Shown: positions 11,622-19,895 of the stretch, in pieces
Layout of the letters: the number at the start of each line of letters is the position of its first letter
Position numbering within the stretch: the stretch's first letter is position 1
Origin: Eggerthella sinensis
GTDB lineage: Bacteria; Actinomycetota; Coriobacteriia; Coriobacteriales; Eggerthellaceae
Direction of reading: 5' to 3'
Assembly: GCF_003339815.1 (NCBI RefSeq)
Contig: NZ_PPTT01000004.1
Location: 62,001 to 126,000, forward strand
Length of the DNA: 64,000 nt
Made by a program: the position numbers and the translations under genes
The notes under the pieces: generated by a model
Databases searched by the model: none
The model's input: the letters and a program-made list of their open reading frames with translations, nothing else
What the model was told of the DNA's origin: nothing

Positions 11622-11630
11622 GGGGGGGGG
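11622..11630 (+). repeat. G9 homopolymer in the regulator leader
   Basis: Nine consecutive G residues lie 12 bases before the ATG at 11643. The tract is outside the coding frame (the frame has a stop at 11571 and no usable start before 11643), so a length change would alter leader spacing or structure rather than the protein frame. Confidence 0.8.
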
Positions 11631-11642
11631 AGATCGAGGCTT

Positions 11643-13079
11643 ATGGAGGCCGAAATTCGCACGGGAGCTGCGATGCGTGATACGGGCGTTTCGTTTGGGA
11701 CGTGCCGTACGATCGCATTGCTCGTGGTGGCCTATGCGTTGTTTCATGGTTGGGCTGACATCTTCTTTATCGGAGAGCTCATCGATCTTCCCGACATGAC
11801 GTACAGCTCCCATCAGATTTTCATCCTGTTTCGCACGCTCGGGTTCTTTGTCTGCTTCGCACTGTCGGATCGTCTGACGACCATCGCTAACAGGCTCGTG
11901 CCCTACCTGGTCTGTGCGGCCCTCATGGTGATGGCGGCGGTTCTCATGCTCGCTTCGGCCTACATTCCCGAAGCGGCGTTCTTCTTGCGATTTGGTGGTG
12001 CGAGCCTCGGAGGGATGGGCATAGGCGTGGTTTCGATGCTCTGGTTCGAATCGATCACGCTACTCAAACCTCTCACGGCTCTCATCTGCTATCTTCTCTC
12101 GGCGCTTGTAGCGCCCTCGCTCATCTCCCCGCTCTACGCAGCAGGTTTCGAGGCTTTGGCGGTGTATGGTCTTACGGTATCCGTGCTTGCGCCCTTTGCC
12201 ATCAAGCTGGGCGTGCGATTCGTTGATGCCCGTCGCGTCGATTCAAAATCCCGGGTGAACGGACCTTTGCTTGCCCGAATGATCGCACTGCTCTCCCTGT
12301 TCGGCTTTGCGCTCGCGTTCCGTGAGCCCATGATGGGCAACCAGATGTTCTCATCAGGTTCGTACACCGCGGTCGGGTCTCTTGCCATGGCGTTGATTGT
12401 TCTCGTCGGAATGGCCATAGGAGGATCCCGTTTTCGCGTCTCGTTTGTTTGCCGCATCCTGCTTCCTCTGACTGCTGTGGCGTTCTTGCTGCTGCCCACC
12501 CGTTTCCCGTTGATGGGATTGGTGTCCGACACCTGCGGATCTGCTTGCGACGAGCTTGTTAAAATCCTGTGCATCATCGTCCTCACCCACCAATGCTGGC
12601 GCAATGATGCTTCGGCTCTGCGACTATTCGGATTGGCGTACGGCGTCCATGGAGCCTTGGTGTTCCTTGGAGGGCAAACCTCTCTCGCCTTAATGGCTCA
12701 AGGGTTGTCGGAAACTGACATTTCCGCCTGGTTCAATATCATTGCGGCTCTAGCGATCGCTGCAACTATCTTTATTCTTCCTGACGATCGAGATCTCGCG
12801 CCCATTTCCTTGTACAGCGAGGAGCCGGCCTTGTCGGCGGAGGGACAGGATGCGCTTGACGAGGCGCGCGCCGCGCGCGCCCTTGGGCTGCGCTTCGGCC
12901 TCACGGCGCGGGAGGTCGAAATTCTAGAACTGATACTGCGAGGAAGGGGAATCGACGACATTGCCGCCGAATTGGTGATCGCCCGTGAGACGGTAAGAAC
13001 GCATCGTCGCAACATCTTTCTCAAATGCGAAGTGCACAGCGAAGAAGAACTGAAACGAGAAGCGGAGAACTGCTTTTGA
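11643..13079 (+). CDS. Membrane-bound LuxR-type transcription regulator
   Basis: A 478-residue protein with about 11-12 hydrophobic helices filling residues 20-380, then a cytoplasmic C-terminal LuxR/FixJ-type HTH (LTAREVEILELILRGRGID, about 420-470). No receiver or ligand-binding domain is present, so the membrane part is presumably the sensor. Architectures like this are common in Eggerthellaceae beside reductase genes. It is divergent from module 1 and upstream of module 2, so it could control either. ATG 11643 is used; ATG 11673 (MRDTGVSFG) with GGGAG five bases upstream is an equally good start. The inducing ligand is unknown. Confidence 0.8.
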   Translation: MEAEIRTGAAMRDTGVSFGTCRTIALLVVAYALFHGWADIFFIGELIDLPDMTYSSHQIFILFRTLGFFVCFALSDRLTTIANRLVPYLVCAALMVMAAVLMLASAYIPEAAFFLRFGGASLGGMGIGVVSMLWFESITLLKPLTALICYLLSALVAPSLISPLYAAGFEALAVYGLTVSVLAPFAIKLGVRFVDARRVDSKSRVNGPLLARMIALLSLFGFALAFREPMMGNQMFSSGSYTAVGSLAMALIVLVGMAIGGSRFRVSFVCRILLPLTAVAFLLLPTRFPLMGLVSDTCGSACDELVKILCIIVLTHQCWRNDASALRLFGLAYGVHGALVFLGGQTSLALMAQGLSETDISAWFNIIAALAIAATIFILPDDRDLAPISLYSEEPALSAEGQDALDEARAARALGLRFGLTAREVEILELILRGRGIDDIAAELVIARETVRTHRRNIFLKCEVHSEEELKREAENCF

Positions 13080-13418
13080 TGGGATTGCTTGGTGAGCAAT
13101 AGAGCTTGAGTGCAGCATGTTTTAAGGAATGCGTCGTGATGCTACGGTGCCGCGCGTGAATCTAGCCAGACTCGAAGGCTTGTTCGGTGGAAAATCGTTA
13201 TGCGATCAGGCGACCCAGTATAGGCCGGGGTCTCTTCCTTTGCGGTTTTGTCGTCGAGGGGCGATACCGCCTCCTGTCCAATCTCCCCTATCCAAATATT
13301 TCAAAATGTTCATAAATTTGAAAGGCTAGATGAATTGAATGACCTCAGGCGGCTGTGCGATTCTTTTGATATGCTCATTGAGCTGATCGAGATGTCGATA
13401 CAGGCGGAGGAGAAGAGT
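13080..13418. other. 339-base region upstream of module 2
   Basis: No gene is supported. Open frames run through it into the oxidoreductase gene, but without ribosome site or family resemblance. It holds a weak TTGCT/AGCAA hairpin (13085-13099) just after the regulator gene and the palindrome at 13299-13323. No convincing -35/-10 pair could be chosen. Confidence 0.6.
13299..13323. promoter_or_regulatory. Inverted repeat, candidate operator of module 2
   Basis: TTTCAAA (13299-13305) and TTTGAAA (13317-13323) form exact 7-base arms with an 11-base AT-rich spacer. It lies about 95 bases before the oxidoreductase start in an otherwise GC-rich region, which fits a dimeric regulator site. The binding protein is unknown. 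Confidence 0.45.
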
Positions 13419-16199
13419 ATGGGAGAGGTTGCTCGCAGCGCAAGCGCAAGAGGGATAAGCCGAAGGGGGTTTGTTGGGGCCAGCGCCGCAGCTGCTTTGC
13501 TGCTCGCATCCGGTTGCGCACCCGAGAACAAGCTCAAGAAGACGGAGGAAACCGAAGAACAGAGGTTTCGACTCGACGCCGAGCTCGACGAGGCCGTAAG
13601 CGGAGAGTGGAAAGCCGTTCCGTGTTGGCATAGCTGCGGAGGTAAATGCCTGCTCAAGGCGTATGTGGTAGACGGCGTTGTCACGCGTGTGAAAACCGAC
13701 GACGTATACGACGACAGTTTGGAGACTTTTCAAAACCGGGCTTGTCCTCGCGGGCGATCCCAGCGCATGACAATCTTCGGCGCAGATCGTCTCAAATACC
13801 CCATGAAGCGCAAAAACTGGCAGCCCGGAGGCGGGGAAAACGTCAACGGCGAATTGCGCGGAGTCGACGAGTGGGAGCGCATCAGCTGGGATGAGGCGAT
13901 CGAACTCACGGCGAAGGAGATGCGTCGTATCTACGATACTCACGGCGGGCGATCGGTGCTGTTTGCCAACTACGGTCGCACCCAGGCGCATTCGAAGCTT
14001 CTCGCGGCCATGGGCGGCTACACTAACTTTACGTTTACCGATTCGTATGGCAGCAATTTTCTGTACACCGGCGAGATGGGTGGCAATTTCGGCCATAGCG
14101 AGGCGGCGTATTCGACCAACGATCGATTGGATCTGCTGAACGCCGAAGTCATTTCCTTCCAAGGTGGAAACCCCGGCTGGGCTTCGGGAGGAACGCCGTT
14201 GTACAACTTCTATCGGGCGAAGCAGAGCGGTGCCGAATTCATTTACATCGGACCCGAGTACAACGTCACGGCGAGCACGCTCGAGGCGAAGTGGATTCCC
14301 ATTCGTCCCGCAACCGACACAGCGTTTCTGCTGGGCGTTGCTCACGAGATGCTGCGCTTGGACCAGGAGCAGGGCGACGTTGTCGATTGGGATTTCATTG
14401 GCAAGTACACGGTAGGATTCACGATGGACAGCCTGCCCGAAGACGCTTCCGTCGAAGAATGCTTCTACGGCTATGTGATGGGCGAATACGACGGCACGCC
14501 GAAAACCGCAGAATGGGCGAGCGAGATATGCGGCGCGCCCGCTGAGGATATCGCGTGGTATGCGGAAAAGATCGGCAAGACGCATGCTGCAACTATGATC
14601 TTCTCGTACGCCCCTTCGCGCTGCAATGGTGCCGAGAGCTTTCCTCAGATGATGATGACGATCGGGTCGATGGGCGGCCATATGGGCAAGCCCGGCCACG
14701 CTTGCGGCCCGCAATACCATTTCTGGGCATCAAACGACGGTCCCGCCTTGATCACGCCTGGTTCCATGCGCGATATGGACCTCCCGAAGGTTTTGGAAAG
14801 CATCGGTGGGTTCGATACGAGCGGAGAAGCCGGAGCTTCGTATCTGGGCGGATCGGCCATCCCCAACCGCGTTGACGATGTAATCCTCACGTCCTTCATG
14901 TGGTCGGCCGTGGTCGACGGGAAGTACACGTACTTCGGCAATGTCGTCGATAGGTCGAAGGGCTTGTCGTTGATCGAGGAACCCGAAGAGCGCGAGATCG
15001 ACATCCGCATGATCTGGTCCGACATGTGCAATTTCATCACGACGCGCCAGAACACCAATCTCGGTATCGAAGCGTACCGTAAAGTTGATTTTGCCGTATC
15101 CACATCTTACGTGTTCACGCCCGCCGCTCAATTCTCCGACATCGTGTTTCCGTGCACCACTCCGTGGGAGGGGCCCGGCTACGATGAGAAGTACCCTATG
15201 CTTTTCAGTCAGCAGAATCGCGAGTCTTTCATTATTCCCCATTGGGCGGTGGCTCCCCTCTATGAGGCGAAGAGCGAGCGTGATATCCAGTACCTCCTGC
15301 TCGAAGCGCTTGGGTTCGAAGCGGATCTGTTCTATCCTGCAAGCGAAGAGCAGCGCCACTTCGACCGAATCGTCAACACCACGGTGCTCGACGAGGACGG
15401 AAAAACCTGGGTTCCCTTGGTCACCATCACTCAGGAAGACCTTGATGAAGTAGGCCTGGAGGGTAAGGTTCAAGAAGGGAAAATCGGATACAAAGAGCTC
15501 ATGGAAGCCGGCGTCTACCATGTTCCGCGAAAAGAGGGGGACAACTACGGTTTCATCGCCTTCAAGGATTTTGTCGACGACCCCGAAGCCAATCCTCGTC
15601 CGTACACCAAGAGCGGCAAGATCGAACTGTATTGTCAGGAGAAGCTCAACATCCTCAATCGTTTGGGCTTTTCCAAGGAACCGCAAAAGCCCTACGTCGA
15701 TTATCACAAGCCGAAATACGGCTACGAGGAAACCTTTGAAGATTGGGACAACAAGGTAAAGGGCGCGTATCCGTTGCAAGTGTTCAACGGCCACTATCTG
15801 AGGCGTTCGCATACCTCCTTCGACGCCGTCGGCTGCATGCGCGAGGCGTATAAGAACCCCGTGTTCATGAATGCGGACGATGCGGCGGAGCGTGGGCTTC
15901 AGGATGGAGACTGGGTGCGCATCTTCAACCAGAACGGCGAAGTGTTGCGTCAGGTCTCGGCTCTTGAGACGATGATGCCGGGCGTCGTCAATCTTCCGCA
16001 CGGATCGTGGCCGGAAATCGATCCCGATCTAGGAATCAGCGTGAACGGAGGCACGAACTTCCTAACTGACTCGACGGTCGGAGACTCTTGCGTGCAGGGG
16101 TACAACACCGTGCTCGTGGAGATAGAGAAATACGAGAAGCAGGATATTCTGCCGGATGAAGCAAGGCCTGTGGTCGTGCCGAAGGGCATAGAGGAATAG
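13419..16199 (+). CDS. Tat-exported molybdopterin oxidoreductase, catalytic subunit (module 2)
   Basis: A 926-residue bis-MGD enzyme of the DMSO-reductase superfamily. Tat motif SRRGFV is at residues 14-19, followed by a lipobox-like LASGC (C33), so it may be an exported lipoprotein. The 4Fe-4S ligands are C69, C73, C77 and C109. ERISWDEAIELTAKEM, GGNPGWASGGTPLYNFY and RSHTSFDAVGC mark the cofactor domains. It resembles module 3 more than module 1 (shared KRKxWQPGG and EWERISWDEA). This broad group includes DMSO reductases and the catechol dehydroxylases of gut Actinobacteria; the substrate cannot be told. The start is chosen for the GGAGGAG site six bases upstream and the immediate Tat signal. 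Confidence 0.88.
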   Translation: MGEVARSASARGISRRGFVGASAAAALLLASGCAPENKLKKTEETEEQRFRLDAELDEAVSGEWKAVPCWHSCGGKCLLKAYVVDGVVTRVKTDDVYDDSLETFQNRACPRGRSQRMTIFGADRLKYPMKRKNWQPGGGENVNGELRGVDEWERISWDEAIELTAKEMRRIYDTHGGRSVLFANYGRTQAHSKLLAAMGGYTNFTFTDSYGSNFLYTGEMGGNFGHSEAAYSTNDRLDLLNAEVISFQGGNPGWASGGTPLYNFYRAKQSGAEFIYIGPEYNVTASTLEAKWIPIRPATDTAFLLGVAHEMLRLDQEQGDVVDWDFIGKYTVGFTMDSLPEDASVEECFYGYVMGEYDGTPKTAEWASEICGAPAEDIAWYAEKIGKTHAATMIFSYAPSRCNGAESFPQMMMTIGSMGGHMGKPGHACGPQYHFWASNDGPALITPGSMRDMDLPKVLESIGGFDTSGEAGASYLGGSAIPNRVDDVILTSFMWSAVVDGKYTYFGNVVDRSKGLSLIEEPEEREIDIRMIWSDMCNFITTRQNTNLGIEAYRKVDFAVSTSYVFTPAAQFSDIVFPCTTPWEGPGYDEKYPMLFSQQNRESFIIPHWAVAPLYEAKSERDIQYLLLEALGFEADLFYPASEEQRHFDRIVNTTVLDEDGKTWVPLVTITQEDLDEVGLEGKVQEGKIGYKELMEAGVYHVPRKEGDNYGFIAFKDFVDDPEANPRPYTKSGKIELYCQEKLNILNRLGFSKEPQKPYVDYHKPKYGYEETFEDWDNKVKGAYPLQVFNGHYLRRSHTSFDAVGCMREAYKNPVFMNADDAAERGLQDGDWVRIFNQNGEVLRQVSALETMMPGVVNLPHGSWPEIDPDLGISVNGGTNFLTDSTVGDSCVQGYNTVLVEIEKYEKQDILPDEARPVVVPKGIEE

Positions 16200-16205
16200 G
16201 GGTGC

Positions 16206-16787
16206 ATGGAGATGACGCTGGGTTTCTATTACAACCAAAGCGCGTGCAGCGGATGCCGCGCTTGCCAGATCGCCTGCAAGGACCGAAACGATCTTCCCGT
16301 CGGCGCGCTCTACCGACATGTGAGCACGTTTCAGACGGGAACGTTTCCCGATGCGACGCTGTACCACTACGCCGCAACCTGCAACCATTGCGAGTCGCCC
16401 GCTTGCGTGGCGAACTGCCCCGTAAGCGCCATGCAGAAGGCCGATGACGGCACCGTCCAGCATGACGACGTGCTGTGCATCGGGTGCGGCACGTGCGTGA
16501 AATCGTGCCCCTACGGAGTGCCGGTGCTTTTCGAGGAGAAGAACATCGCCGGCAAGTGCGATTCGTGCAAGCCGTTTCGCGATGCTGGGAAGAATCCGGT
16601 ATGCGTGGACGCGTGCAACATGCGATGCCTCGATTTCGGGGATATCGACGAATTGAAAGAGAAGTACGGAGCCGATCTGGTAAGCGAGCTTCCGATCCTC
16701 CCCTCGGCTGAAGAGACGGGTCCTTCAACGCTGATCAACCCGAAGGCGGCCGCTCTCAGTGAAGACTTCAAGGAAGCGATTCTATGA
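16206..16787 (+). CDS. DmsB-like 4Fe-4S electron-transfer subunit (module 2)
   Basis: A 193-residue ferredoxin subunit with four cysteine groups: CSGCRACQIACKDRND, CNHCESPACVANCPVSAM, CIGCGTCVKSCPYG and CDSCKPFRDAGKNPVCVDAC. It should pass electrons to the oxidoreductase encoded six bases upstream. Module 2 has no membrane anchor gene, so its electron donor must be encoded elsewhere or shared with modules 1 or 3. ATG 16206 is used; ATG 16212 is also possible. Its C-terminus (DFGDIDELKEKYGADLVSE) closely matches the module 3 subunit, pointing to common origin. Confidence 0.88.
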   Translation: MEMTLGFYYNQSACSGCRACQIACKDRNDLPVGALYRHVSTFQTGTFPDATLYHYAATCNHCESPACVANCPVSAMQKADDGTVQHDDVLCIGCGTCVKSCPYGVPVLFEEKNIAGKCDSCKPFRDAGKNPVCVDACNMRCLDFGDIDELKEKYGADLVSELPILPSAEETGPSTLINPKAAALSEDFKEAIL

Positions 16788-17440
16788 CGGTCGAGATGGC
16801 GAGCGAAGAGCTCGAGACGGCGCTGTCGGCTCGCAGGTATATGTACGCAGCGCTTCAAAGCCTGTTCGGGAACGAACCGAGCAGCGAACGGCTCCAAGCC
16901 ATCAGCCTCCCGCTTTTGCGGGAGGCTTCGGCCGTGCTCGGGATTGGCGGCGCCGATGAGCTGTCCGAGGCTATAGAGATCGCATCGACCGACCTAGAAA
17001 AGCTCAAAGGCGAGTATACACGCCTGTTCATAGGTCCGAACGAGCTTCCCGCACCGCTATGGGAGTCGGTGTACGTCACAAAGGAGCGCATCCTGTTTCA
17101 CCGCCGCACGCTCGAAGTTCGCAATTTCTACCGGTCGGAGGGGCTTATTCCTCAGATGTATCCGAGTGTTGCCGATGATCACATTGCGCTTGAGCTCGAC
17201 TTCCTTCGGTCGCTCGCTGATCGCATCGTCGATGCATGCATGTTGGGCAATCGGGTAGAATATGGCAAAGCGTTGGATGCTAGCAGGCGGTTTCTCGAAT
17301 TCCATCTCGGCACGTGGGTCGATGCGTTCTCTGAAGGTTTGGCCAGGATCGGGCAGGGGGATCTGTATCCCGCAGCGGGCCGATTGCTCGCGGCGTTCGT
17401 CCACGCTGATGAAAAGGTTCTCAAAGGTCTGCTCGGGTAG
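16784..17440 (+). CDS. TorD-family chaperone (module 2)
   Basis: A 218-residue helical cytoplasmic chaperone of the TorD type, overlapping the ferredoxin subunit gene by four bases (ATGA). Family-typical segments are LKGEYTRLFIGPNELPAPLWESVYVTKE, the central loop PQMYPSVADDHIALELDFLRSL and the C-terminal FLEFHLGTWVDAFSEGL. It should guide cofactor insertion and Tat export of the module 2 oxidoreductase. The TorD proteins of modules 1 and 3 are distinct, suggesting that each client has its own chaperone. Confidence 0.85.
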   Translation: MTVEMASEELETALSARRYMYAALQSLFGNEPSSERLQAISLPLLREASAVLGIGGADELSEAIEIASTDLEKLKGEYTRLFIGPNELPAPLWESVYVTKERILFHRRTLEVRNFYRSEGLIPQMYPSVADDHIALELDFLRSLADRIVDACMLGNRVEYGKALDASRRFLEFHLGTWVDAFSEGLARIGQGDLYPAAGRLLAAFVHADEKVLKGLLG

Positions 17441-17486
17441 CGATTTGGTCCGGACGGCTTGATTCAGGCTGGCTGCAGGAAGGCGA

Positions 17487-19205
17487 ATGCGGTTTGCGGG
17501 GGGGGGGTGCGCGGTGTTCAAGCAGGTACCGCTCAAGATCAAATTTTCGGTGTTGTTCATAACCGTGATGGCTATTCTTATGGCGGCAAACATCGTCTGG
17601 CGGAGCTATACGCTTGAGCGGCAGGTGGAGCACGAGATGCTTGAAACCACCCAAGTGCTTGCCCAGGAGATGGATGCTATCTGGGATTTTATGGAGAGCA
17701 ATGAGAATCAGTTCGTAGAAAACGACGATGGGACCCGCAACTTGTACTGCGTGGTAGCCGCAAAGGCGGTCAGCCATCTGTTCACCGTGAACAACGAACG
17801 CGATTTTGCCATTCACTATACCAACTTGAGCACACGCAAACCTGCCGATGCTCCCGACGGATTCGAGGCGAAGGCCCTTGAGACGCTCAAGGCAGATCCG
17901 GAATTGGATCACTACTATTCGCTCGAAACAGAAGAGGACGGTACGAAGGTCTTTCGCTATATCGAACCGCTCTACATCACGGAGTCATGCCTTGAATGTC
18001 ATGGAGACCCTGCGGGGGAGCTCGACATCATGGGCTATGAAAAGGAGGGGATGAAGGAGGGCGACATGGCGGGCGCGGCGAGCATCCTCATGCCTGCCGA
18101 CACCTACATGGACAACGTTCGCGAGAGCCTTATCCAAGAAACCATCGTGTTCGTCCTGTTCGTTTTCGTGGGGCTGGGCATCACGTTCTTCAGCATTTCG
18201 AAGCTCGTCACTTCGCCTCTAAAGAAGCTCGAAGATGCTGCACAGCAGATCGAAGAGCATGATTTCGATGTCAGCCTCACGAAAATAGGCGACCGCGACG
18301 AAATAGAGCATCTGTCGGCCCACTTCCATTCCATGGCCGAGCAACTCAAGCGCCTGTACAGCGACCTTGAGGGCGAGGTTCAAGACCGAACAACGCAACT
18401 TGCCGAGTCGAATCGGGTTCTCGAGCGACAAAGGGAAGAACTTGCGGCCATGAACGAGAAGCTCGAGCAGGAAAACCGCTATCAAAGCGATTTTCTGGCC
18501 ATCATGAGCCACGAGATACGCACGCCGCTTACGTCCATCCTTGCGTTTGCCGACATCTGGTCGCGCACCAACGATCCGCGCAACCCGGAAGAAGAAAGCA
18601 TCATGAAGGAGATGCGCGTCAACAGCCAGATCCTGCTTGCGATGGTTAACAACATCCTTGAAATGGCTCGCGTCGAAGCGGGACGCTCGGAGCTTGCGCT
18701 GGAGCCCTCAGAAATCCCCGATCTGCTTACCGAGATCAAGGGAACCATGCGATTCCTCGCTGACAAGAAGCAGGTGAAAATCACATCGCGCATCGATCGC
18801 GATATGCCGGTCGTGATGATCGATTCCGAGAAAGTCCGTCGCATTCTTGAGAACCTTGTATCGAACGCGATCAAGTTCGTCGACGAACAGGGCTCGGTAG
18901 ACATCGATGCACGCTACCTGTGGGATACCGAGGAGCTCGTCCTCACGGTAAGCGATGACGGCTGCGGTATAAAGCCCGAAGACGTCCCTTACATATTCGA
19001 ACGTTTCGTGCAGGGTAAAGACGGATCGAAGCACAAGCATGGGGGAAGTGGCTTGGGCCTGACAGTGGTTCGAGAGCTCGCCGAACTGCATGGGGGAAGC
19101 GTGGAGCTGACGCAACCCCGTGAAACAGAAGACGGAGATGCAAGGGGATGCGCATTCGTCGTGCGTTTGAAAGCCGAACCGGGGCAATCGGGAGATTTGG
19201 AGTAA
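17487..19205 (+). CDS. Sensor histidine kinase with Tll0287-like (DUF3365) haem-binding domain
   Basis: A 572-residue membrane kinase. TM1 is about residues 16-36. The extracytoplasmic sensor, about 45-210, is of the Tll0287-like/DUF3365 type and ends with a CxxCH motif (C168, C171, H172), so it may bind c-type haem and sense redox state or a gas. TM2 is about 212-235, followed by HAMP and a coiled coil. The HisKA domain carries phospho-acceptor H342 in MSHEIRTPLTS; the ATPase domain has DDGCGIKPED and GGSGLGLTVV. The start is ATG 17487 with AGGAAGG just upstream. Codons 4-7 contain a run of ten G residues, so slippage could switch the gene off. Four bases separate it from the response regulator gene. 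Confidence 0.9.
   Translation: MRFAGGGCAVFKQVPLKIKFSVLFITVMAILMAANIVWRSYTLERQVEHEMLETTQVLAQEMDAIWDFMESNENQFVENDDGTRNLYCVVAAKAVSHLFTVNNERDFAIHYTNLSTRKPADAPDGFEAKALETLKADPELDHYYSLETEEDGTKVFRYIEPLYITESCLECHGDPAGELDIMGYEKEGMKEGDMAGAASILMPADTYMDNVRESLIQETIVFVLFVFVGLGITFFSISKLVTSPLKKLEDAAQQIEEHDFDVSLTKIGDRDEIEHLSAHFHSMAEQLKRLYSDLEGEVQDRTTQLAESNRVLERQREELAAMNEKLEQENRYQSDFLAIMSHEIRTPLTSILAFADIWSRTNDPRNPEEESIMKEMRVNSQILLAMVNNILEMARVEAGRSELALEPSEIPDLLTEIKGTMRFLADKKQVKITSRIDRDMPVVMIDSEKVRRILENLVSNAIKFVDEQGSVDIDARYLWDTEELVLTVSDDGCGIKPEDVPYIFERFVQGKDGSKHKHGGSGLGLTVVRELAELHGGSVELTQPRETEDGDARGCAFVVRLKAEPGQSGDLE
17498..17507 (+). repeat. G10 homopolymer inside the first codons of the kinase gene
   Basis: Ten consecutive G residues span codons 4-7 after ATG 17487. 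Gain or loss of one base would shift the frame and stop translation early, unless the GTG at 17514 is used to restart. This is the typical layout of a phase-variable contingency locus. Confidence 0.85.
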
Positions 19206-19208
19206 GCC

Positions 19209-19895
19209 ATGTTGATTATGCTAGCCGATGACGACGAAGGTATGCAGACGCTCGTGGGGCATATCGTACGCGAAGAGGGATACGATTTCATTTGCGTGTC
19301 GGACGGTGCGGAAGCGCTCGCAACGTACGAGCGAGAGCGGCCCGACCTGCTCATTCTTGACGTCATGATGCCAGGGATAAACGGCTTCGAGGTCACGGCG
19401 ACGCTACGGGCAAAAAACGCAGCGACTCCTATCCTGCTGCTTACTGCGAAAGGCGACATCGTTGACAAGAACATCGGATTCAAAGCGGGTGCCGATGACT
19501 ATTTGGTCAAGCCGTTTATACCGGAAGAGCTGCAACTGCGCATCGAAGCGCTTTTGCGCCGATCCCAGAAAGGAAGGAAGAGCGGCTATTCTCCCGATGT
19601 GCTCACGTTCGACGGACTGGTGATCGATTCGAAGAAACGCAGGGTCACGGCGCAGGGTAGGGCAGTCGAGCTGACCCCGAAAGAATTCCACCTTCTCTAT
19701 ATGCTTGCGTGCAATCCCGGCGTAGTGTTCACGCGGGAGAACCTCATCGAGGATATTTGGGGGCCGGAATATTCGGGAGAAAGCGCGAGCATCACCGTGC
19801 TCGTCCACCGCTTGCGCGAAAAGATCGAACCCGACCCGCACGAGCCTCGTTACGTGCAGACCGTATGGCATGTGGGCTACCGCTTCGGCGACTAG
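19209..19895 (+). CDS. OmpR/PhoB-family response regulator
   Basis: A 228-residue regulator. The receiver domain (about 1-118) has the acidic pocket D7-D9, phospho-acceptor D51 (LLILDVMMPG) and the conserved lysine in LVKPF. The C-terminal winged helix (about 130-226) ends with VHRLREKIEPDPHEPRYVQTVWHVGYRF. It is the partner of the haem-type kinase encoded four bases upstream and closes the module 2 gene string. The likely target is module 2 itself, for example the palindrome at 13299-13323, but no footprint can be read from sequence. Confidence 0.92.
   Translation: MLIMLADDDEGMQTLVGHIVREEGYDFICVSDGAEALATYERERPDLLILDVMMPGINGFEVTATLRAKNAATPILLLTAKGDIVDKNIGFKAGADDYLVKPFIPEELQLRIEALLRRSQKGRKSGYSPDVLTFDGLVIDSKKRRVTAQGRAVELTPKEFHLLYMLACNPGVVFTRENLIEDIWGPEYSGESASITVLVHRLREKIEPDPHEPRYVQTVWHVGYRFGD

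Follow-up and report, generated by a model that had tools for sequence, protein, structure and literature searches.

Gene content at the G10 tract

The DNA analysed here, referred to as the window, is a stretch of 64,000 nucleotides from Eggerthella sinensis, in which a sensor histidine kinase gene is flanked by a DmsA/DmsB/TorD-type gene set and an OmpR-type regulator gene, all on the + strand. The module is headed by an ORF (11643–13079) with a Pfam match that identifies a LuxR-type (GerE) multi-TM regulator. Pfam domain assignment places after it, in the same gene cluster, a molybdopterin oxidoreductase (DmsA-like, 13248–16199), the true start of which may lie further downstream than 13248, a 4Fe-4S electron-transfer subunit (DmsB-like, 16206–16787), a TorD/NarJ-type chaperone (Nitrate_red_del, 16784–17440) and, beyond the kinase, its partner, the OmpR-type response regulator (19209–19895). 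The longest kinase ORF extends from ATG 17487 to the stop at 19205 and encodes 572 aa. The kinase consists of a TM, a Tll0287-like haem domain with the motif CLECH, HAMP, HisKA and HATPase_c, all above the Pfam cut-off, and thus combines the CxxCH domain with the other three domains that characterise Tll0287-like haem-type histidine kinases. An earlier sequence-only reading of this DNA was right to call the kinase haem-type, and the domain and its motif suggest that haem is bound and that a ligand or the redox state is sensed. In domain order and neighbourhood it resembles the Tll0287-domain, CxxCH-bearing kinases found beside DMSO-reductase-type operons of Eggerthellaceae, and most Eggerthella genomes searched encode several paralogues of the Tll0287 type. 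Members of Eggerthella are gut bacteria known for the metabolism of drugs and polyphenols by DMSO-reductase-type enzymes.

The 5' end of the ORF reads ATG CGG TTT GCG GGG GGG GGG TGC GCG GTG, so that a homopolymer of ten Gs (G10, 17498–17507, +) occupies codons 4–7. Direct reading bears out the earlier description of such a run in the kinase codons, placed after an ATG with AGGAAGG upstream; this heptamer (17477–17483, +) is a possible ribosome site for ATG 17487 as judged from its sequence and duplex energy. A change of one base in the length of the tract shifts the ATG frame and leaves a product of 24 aa with G9 or 43 aa with G11. Unlike the kinase gene in the window, none of 20 Tll0287-type kinase homologues scanned has a G or C run of at least 7 near its start. 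A run scan found another tract, of nine Gs (11622–11630, +), 12 nt 5' of ATG 11643, so that a single regulatory module contains two G tracts, G10 at the kinase gene and G9 before the gene of the LuxR-type regulator.

The start codon of the kinase gene

GTG 17514 lies 3' of the G10 tract, in frame with ATG 17487 and 73 nt from the end of the chaperone gene. A start at GTG 17514 is therefore independent of the frame set by the tract length, and the product would be a kinase of 563 aa (17514–19205, +). The core sequence GGGGGTG (17503–17509, +) is complementary to the anti-Shine-Dalgarno sequence, corresponding to GGAGGTG with one G-U pair. The spacer between the Gs and GTG 17514 is 6 nt, within the range of 5–9 nt before a start codon at which complementarity to 16S rRNA marks a Shine-Dalgarno sequence. 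For the site at G10, ahead of GTG 17514, pairing with the 16S 3' end, which we take to be the standard actinobacterial sequence, is predicted at -18.1 kcal/mol, versus -8.4 kcal/mol for the site ahead of ATG 17487, although the duplex energies calculated for poly-G are rough and leave mRNA structure out of account. The predicted pairing before GTG is strong for all tract lengths from 6 to 15 and is flat from 9 to 15 Gs, and mRNA folding is identical for G9, G10 and G11 (-35.0 kcal/mol each).

The N-terminus of the family also points to GTG 17514. K19, a conserved Lys ahead of TM1, lies 9 codons from GTG 17514 and 18 from ATG 17487, and 17 of the 34 called starts of homologous kinases are located 8, 9 or 10 codons before the equivalent Lys. 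The nine optional residues encoded from ATG 17487, MRFAGGGCA (17487–17513, +), have no counterpart in the kinase homologues inspected, and only tract lengths that equal the present one modulo 3 keep them in frame. A self-trained coding model begins the gene at GTG 17514, with a negative coding score for the DNA upstream. The first gene caller had been misled by antisense ORFs in the GC-rich DNA. Retraining began with 12 genes of the window as the seed, the products of most of which have Pfam support, and continued on the sampled genome. Against GTG 17514, some homologues start 14–17 codons before the Lys equivalent to K19, indicating that longer N-termini are tolerated. Furthermore, ATG 17487 has a fair ribosome site of its own, ATG is usually the stronger start codon, and the present length keeps the ATG frame open, for which the chance is 1 in 3.

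On this evidence, GTG 17514 appears to be the main start of the kinase gene, and translation is likely to begin there normally. The sequence-only reading had proposed that one base more or less would truncate the kinase and had itself named a normal start at GTG 17514 as the observation that would speak against this. Truncation follows only if ATG 17487 is obligatory, and the evidence favours the other codon. The same reading had allowed for GTG 17514 as a rescue start of lower level; the start is favoured by the family N-terminus, coding statistics and Shine-Dalgarno strength.

Abundance, instability and placement of long G runs

Runs of 5, 6 and 7 G or C occur 552, 33 and 4 times in the 564 kb sampled, whereas the whole genome of 4.01 Mb contains 23 runs of exactly 8, 24 of exactly 9 and about 34–35 of at least 10. 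Run counts thus drop about tenfold with each added base up to 7 and then reach a plateau. Because extrapolation of the decay expects well under one run of at least 10, the long G runs form a separate class and not the tail of the distribution. The run-length decay was used as the null model in place of a dinucleotide shuffle, which was rejected as it overestimates long runs (about 3 G8 matches per window by chance). The statement that a run of this length is rare by chance was therefore correct, with fewer than one run of 10 or more predicted and about 34–35 seen. The kinase G10 is much longer than chance allows, as are the tracts of contingency loci; it is non-random yet not unique, being one of about 35 such runs in the genome. 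With the retrained gene caller, 30 of 34 tracts of at least 10 are located in non-coding DNA, which makes up 11% of the genome (P ~1e-24). Each of three congener genomes contains 30–50 tracts of at least 10. In other relatives within the Coriobacteriales (G046, G049 and G013), 50–235 tracts of at least 10 G were counted, and the counts vary greatly between genera.

The lengths of these tracts differ between species. Flank matching among the congeners, with one genome per species, yielded some 14 sites with orthologous tracts, of which some 11 show a difference in length. A tract in the promoter of a GGDEF gene has 10 Gs in G001 and 11 in G002 with flanks 98.5–99% identical, and a second site has 9 and 10 Gs with flanks 99% identical. 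The GGDEF promoter tract is conserved directly 5' of TATACT in three species (L104, G000:C1:239088; L225, G001:C1:442435; L275, G002:C1:480366), with lengths of 10, 10 and 11 G. MutS1 and NucS are absent from 13 of 13 genomes tested, and MutL gave only weak matches below the cut-off in the same 13, the positive controls being detected. In agreement with this, a published survey found mismatch-repair genes missing in all analysed Coriobacteriia (PMC5290159). Since known mismatch repair is lacking, slippage is the expected state. The earlier suggestion that the tract is slip-prone accordingly holds for the class, as there is no MutS, MutL or NucS and orthologous tracts of congeners vary in length. 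A slippage-prone class of G tracts in Eggerthella is well supported, and by comparison the on/off reading of the kinase gene is weaker. The kinase has no close orthologue in the three congeners, which ruled out an orthologue comparison of its tract, and its relatives elsewhere in the order are only about 35–58% identical. By extension from other tracts of the genus, the kinase tract may vary in length as well.

Some of the tracts lie where a ribosome site would be expected. Among 186 tracts of at least 8 in four genomes, 9 (8 of them independent) are located 5–7 nt before a start codon, about 2 being expected from the larger distances (P ~0.001), in a test that uses the first start codon of each ORF and therefore favours short distances. 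The clearest parallel to the arrangement at the kinase comes from G002, where a G11 is followed after 7 nt by the start codon ATG of an OmpR-type regulator gene; the neighbours of this gene encode a cytochrome c552 (NrfA-like; cytochrome c nitrite reductase) and a kinase. Here too the mechanical ORF includes the G run, as the extension MRCQCLDGGGGRI, and the protein plainly starts at MKVMFADDD. Another run of 11 Gs, followed by TGCTGACCGCA, is kept in three species (L130, L250 and L304), and in G000 a bacterial sugar transferase gene starts 10 nt beyond this tract.

Promoters and coding frames account for other tracts. A search for promoter-like sites at the kinase tract found none, and an internal kinase promoter with the tract in its spacer was rejected for this reason. 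Placement in promoter spacers was likewise rejected as a rule for all tracts. Strict -35/-10 matches are present in only 2 of 56 cases, and a -10 box follows the tract immediately on its 3' side in 14 of 178 cases versus 6 on the other strand, indicating that such placement holds for a minority only. Some tracts 5' of GGDEF genes immediately precede a -10 box. More G tracts lie beside GGDEF or EAL genes (L118, L134 and L136), c-di-GMP genes being recurrent near tracts. Intergenic inverted repeats attgcgc...gcgcaat followed by G8–10 occur in several copies (L106, L111, L191, L192 and L199). Six coding-frame tracts (L189, L197, L183, L194, L110 and L129) lie in N-terminal or internal codons of genes for a secreted VWA-domain protein, a secreted repeat-domain protein, a GLUG-motif protein, a GNAT acetyltransferase, a LuxR-type regulator and an FrhB-type protein, and these appear to be classical contingency genes. 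In the assembly, the frames of the secreted (VWA, repeat, GLUG), GNAT and LuxR-type genes are interrupted and that of the FrhB-type gene is open.

A proposed graded effect of tract length and its alternatives

The reading that we prefer, by a modest balance of probability, is that G10 is a slippage-prone poly-G in the translation-initiation region of the kinase gene, most likely serving as the Shine-Dalgarno sequence of GTG 17514 and tuning the dose of the kinase. Replication slippage in a genus without MutS-MutL and NucS would alter the number of Gs, and the tract would act as the ribosome site of the native start instead of forming obligatory codons. At the present length, both starts would yield the kinase, of 572 aa from the ATG or 563 aa from the GTG. 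At other lengths modulo 3, ATG 17487 would give rise to a dead-end peptide of 24–43 aa that overlaps GTG 17514, and the GTG with its poly-G ribosome site would still yield the kinase. A change in length would thus affect only the strength of the ribosome site and whether the competing ATG upstream is in frame. As a result, kinase expression would shift moderately, and the dose available for the DmsABD-type reductase operon would be tuned and not turned fully on or off; tuning is more likely than switch-off as the effect of G10 on the kinase. We infer start usage, the size and direction of the effect and the variation at the kinase locus alike.

A classical coding contingency locus, in which translation starts at ATG 17487, G10 is coding and slippage by one base truncates the kinase to give on and off cells, is unlikely here. 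The ATG does have AGGAAGG upstream, its frame is open with G10 and lost with either G9 or G11, and the apparently genuine coding tracts elsewhere in the genome make this mode of switching plausible. However, GTG 17514 lies in frame beyond the tract, with the stronger predicted ribosome site and the usual N-terminus of the family, and MRFAGGGCA is without counterpart in homologues. Because a strong start lies beyond its tract, the kinase gene is not the best example of on/off switching; in two of the secreted-protein genes, by contrast, the tract is not followed by any comparable start whose ribosome site is strong. We give just as little credence to the view that the tract is neutral, in which unrepaired slippage builds G runs in spacers and a G-rich ribosome site functions whatever its length, without regulatory effect. 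The absence of MutS, MutL and NucS, the non-coding location of 30 of the 34 long tracts, the many tracts without an evident role that lie in inverted repeats or where genes end and the flat predicted Shine-Dalgarno pairing from 9 to 15 Gs are all consistent with neutrality. Conserved tract sites in the promoters or at the starts of GGDEF, regulator and glycan genes argue against it, as do the coding-type tracts, which fall in the usual contingency repertoire of surface, glycan and regulator genes, and the second G tract before the LuxR regulator of the module.

It is very improbable that the exact length of 10 is an error of short-read sequencing or assembly. The genome is a draft of 75 contigs, and the ends of contigs C3, C51, C52 and C58 of G000 lie in or beside G runs of at least 14, so that G runs evidently trouble assembly. 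Nevertheless, comparable tracts are present in congener genomes of one and two contigs, and a one-base error would leave the tract in place. One tract that G001 and G002 carry intact has its two flanks at the ends of C3 and C58.

A broader proposal, which we put forward tentatively and hold to be possible at best, is that Eggerthella, in which all known mismatch repair is missing, maintains hypervariable poly-G tracts throughout the genus. Those of diguanylate cyclase genes would lie in promoter spacers and those of surface and glycan genes in coding frames; the least usual ones would form the ribosome sites of two-component regulators that control respiratory reductases. The kinase tract would then be a rheostat that gives rise to heritable cell-to-cell differences in the respiratory acceptor used. 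The best-known cases of variation driven by slippage come from host-restricted pathogens. As in the homopolymeric contingency loci described by Orsi et al. 2010 (PMC2831843), in Bordetella pertussis (PMC1891110) and in Campylobacter (PMC3025981), a long slippage-prone mononucleotide run lies at the 5' end of a gene, and the genome-wide set of tracts touches surface, glycan and regulatory genes. Unlike in those loci, the kinase tract most likely precedes the true start as a ribosome site, and changes in its length should adjust expression without destroying the frame. Another likeness is an actinobacterial poly-G 5' of a regulator start, that in the 5'UTR of espR of Mycobacterium tuberculosis, in which a one-base insertion raises the protein level post-transcriptionally (PMC11898584). 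The espR tract, however, lies 144 bp upstream and is thought to act via mRNA structure, whereas the kinase tract overlaps the Shine-Dalgarno position; moreover, mycobacteria have NucS and Eggerthella does not. A literature search found no paper tying poly-G tracts to Eggerthella, and the phase variation reported in the Eggerthella literature is genome inversion (PMC13174815). Homopolymer-mediated variation as such is already known; the placement in a ribosome site is unusual, and the context is genus-wide and merits separate study. Unstable G tracts at regulators would shift the behaviour of a strain within a culture or host, and they would offer a testable consequence of missing mismatch repair in Coriobacteriia. 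In the promoter-spacer homopolymer switches of the Neisseria porA type, the run lies within a promoter. The kinase tract differs from this type in having no promoter-like site, whereas other Eggerthella tracts resemble it in lying just 5' of a -10 box, one of them with TTGACA upstream in two species. The latter (L117 in G000 and L217 in G003) is a promoter-spacer tract common to both species, with the arrangement TTGACA, G10 or G11, CATTAT.
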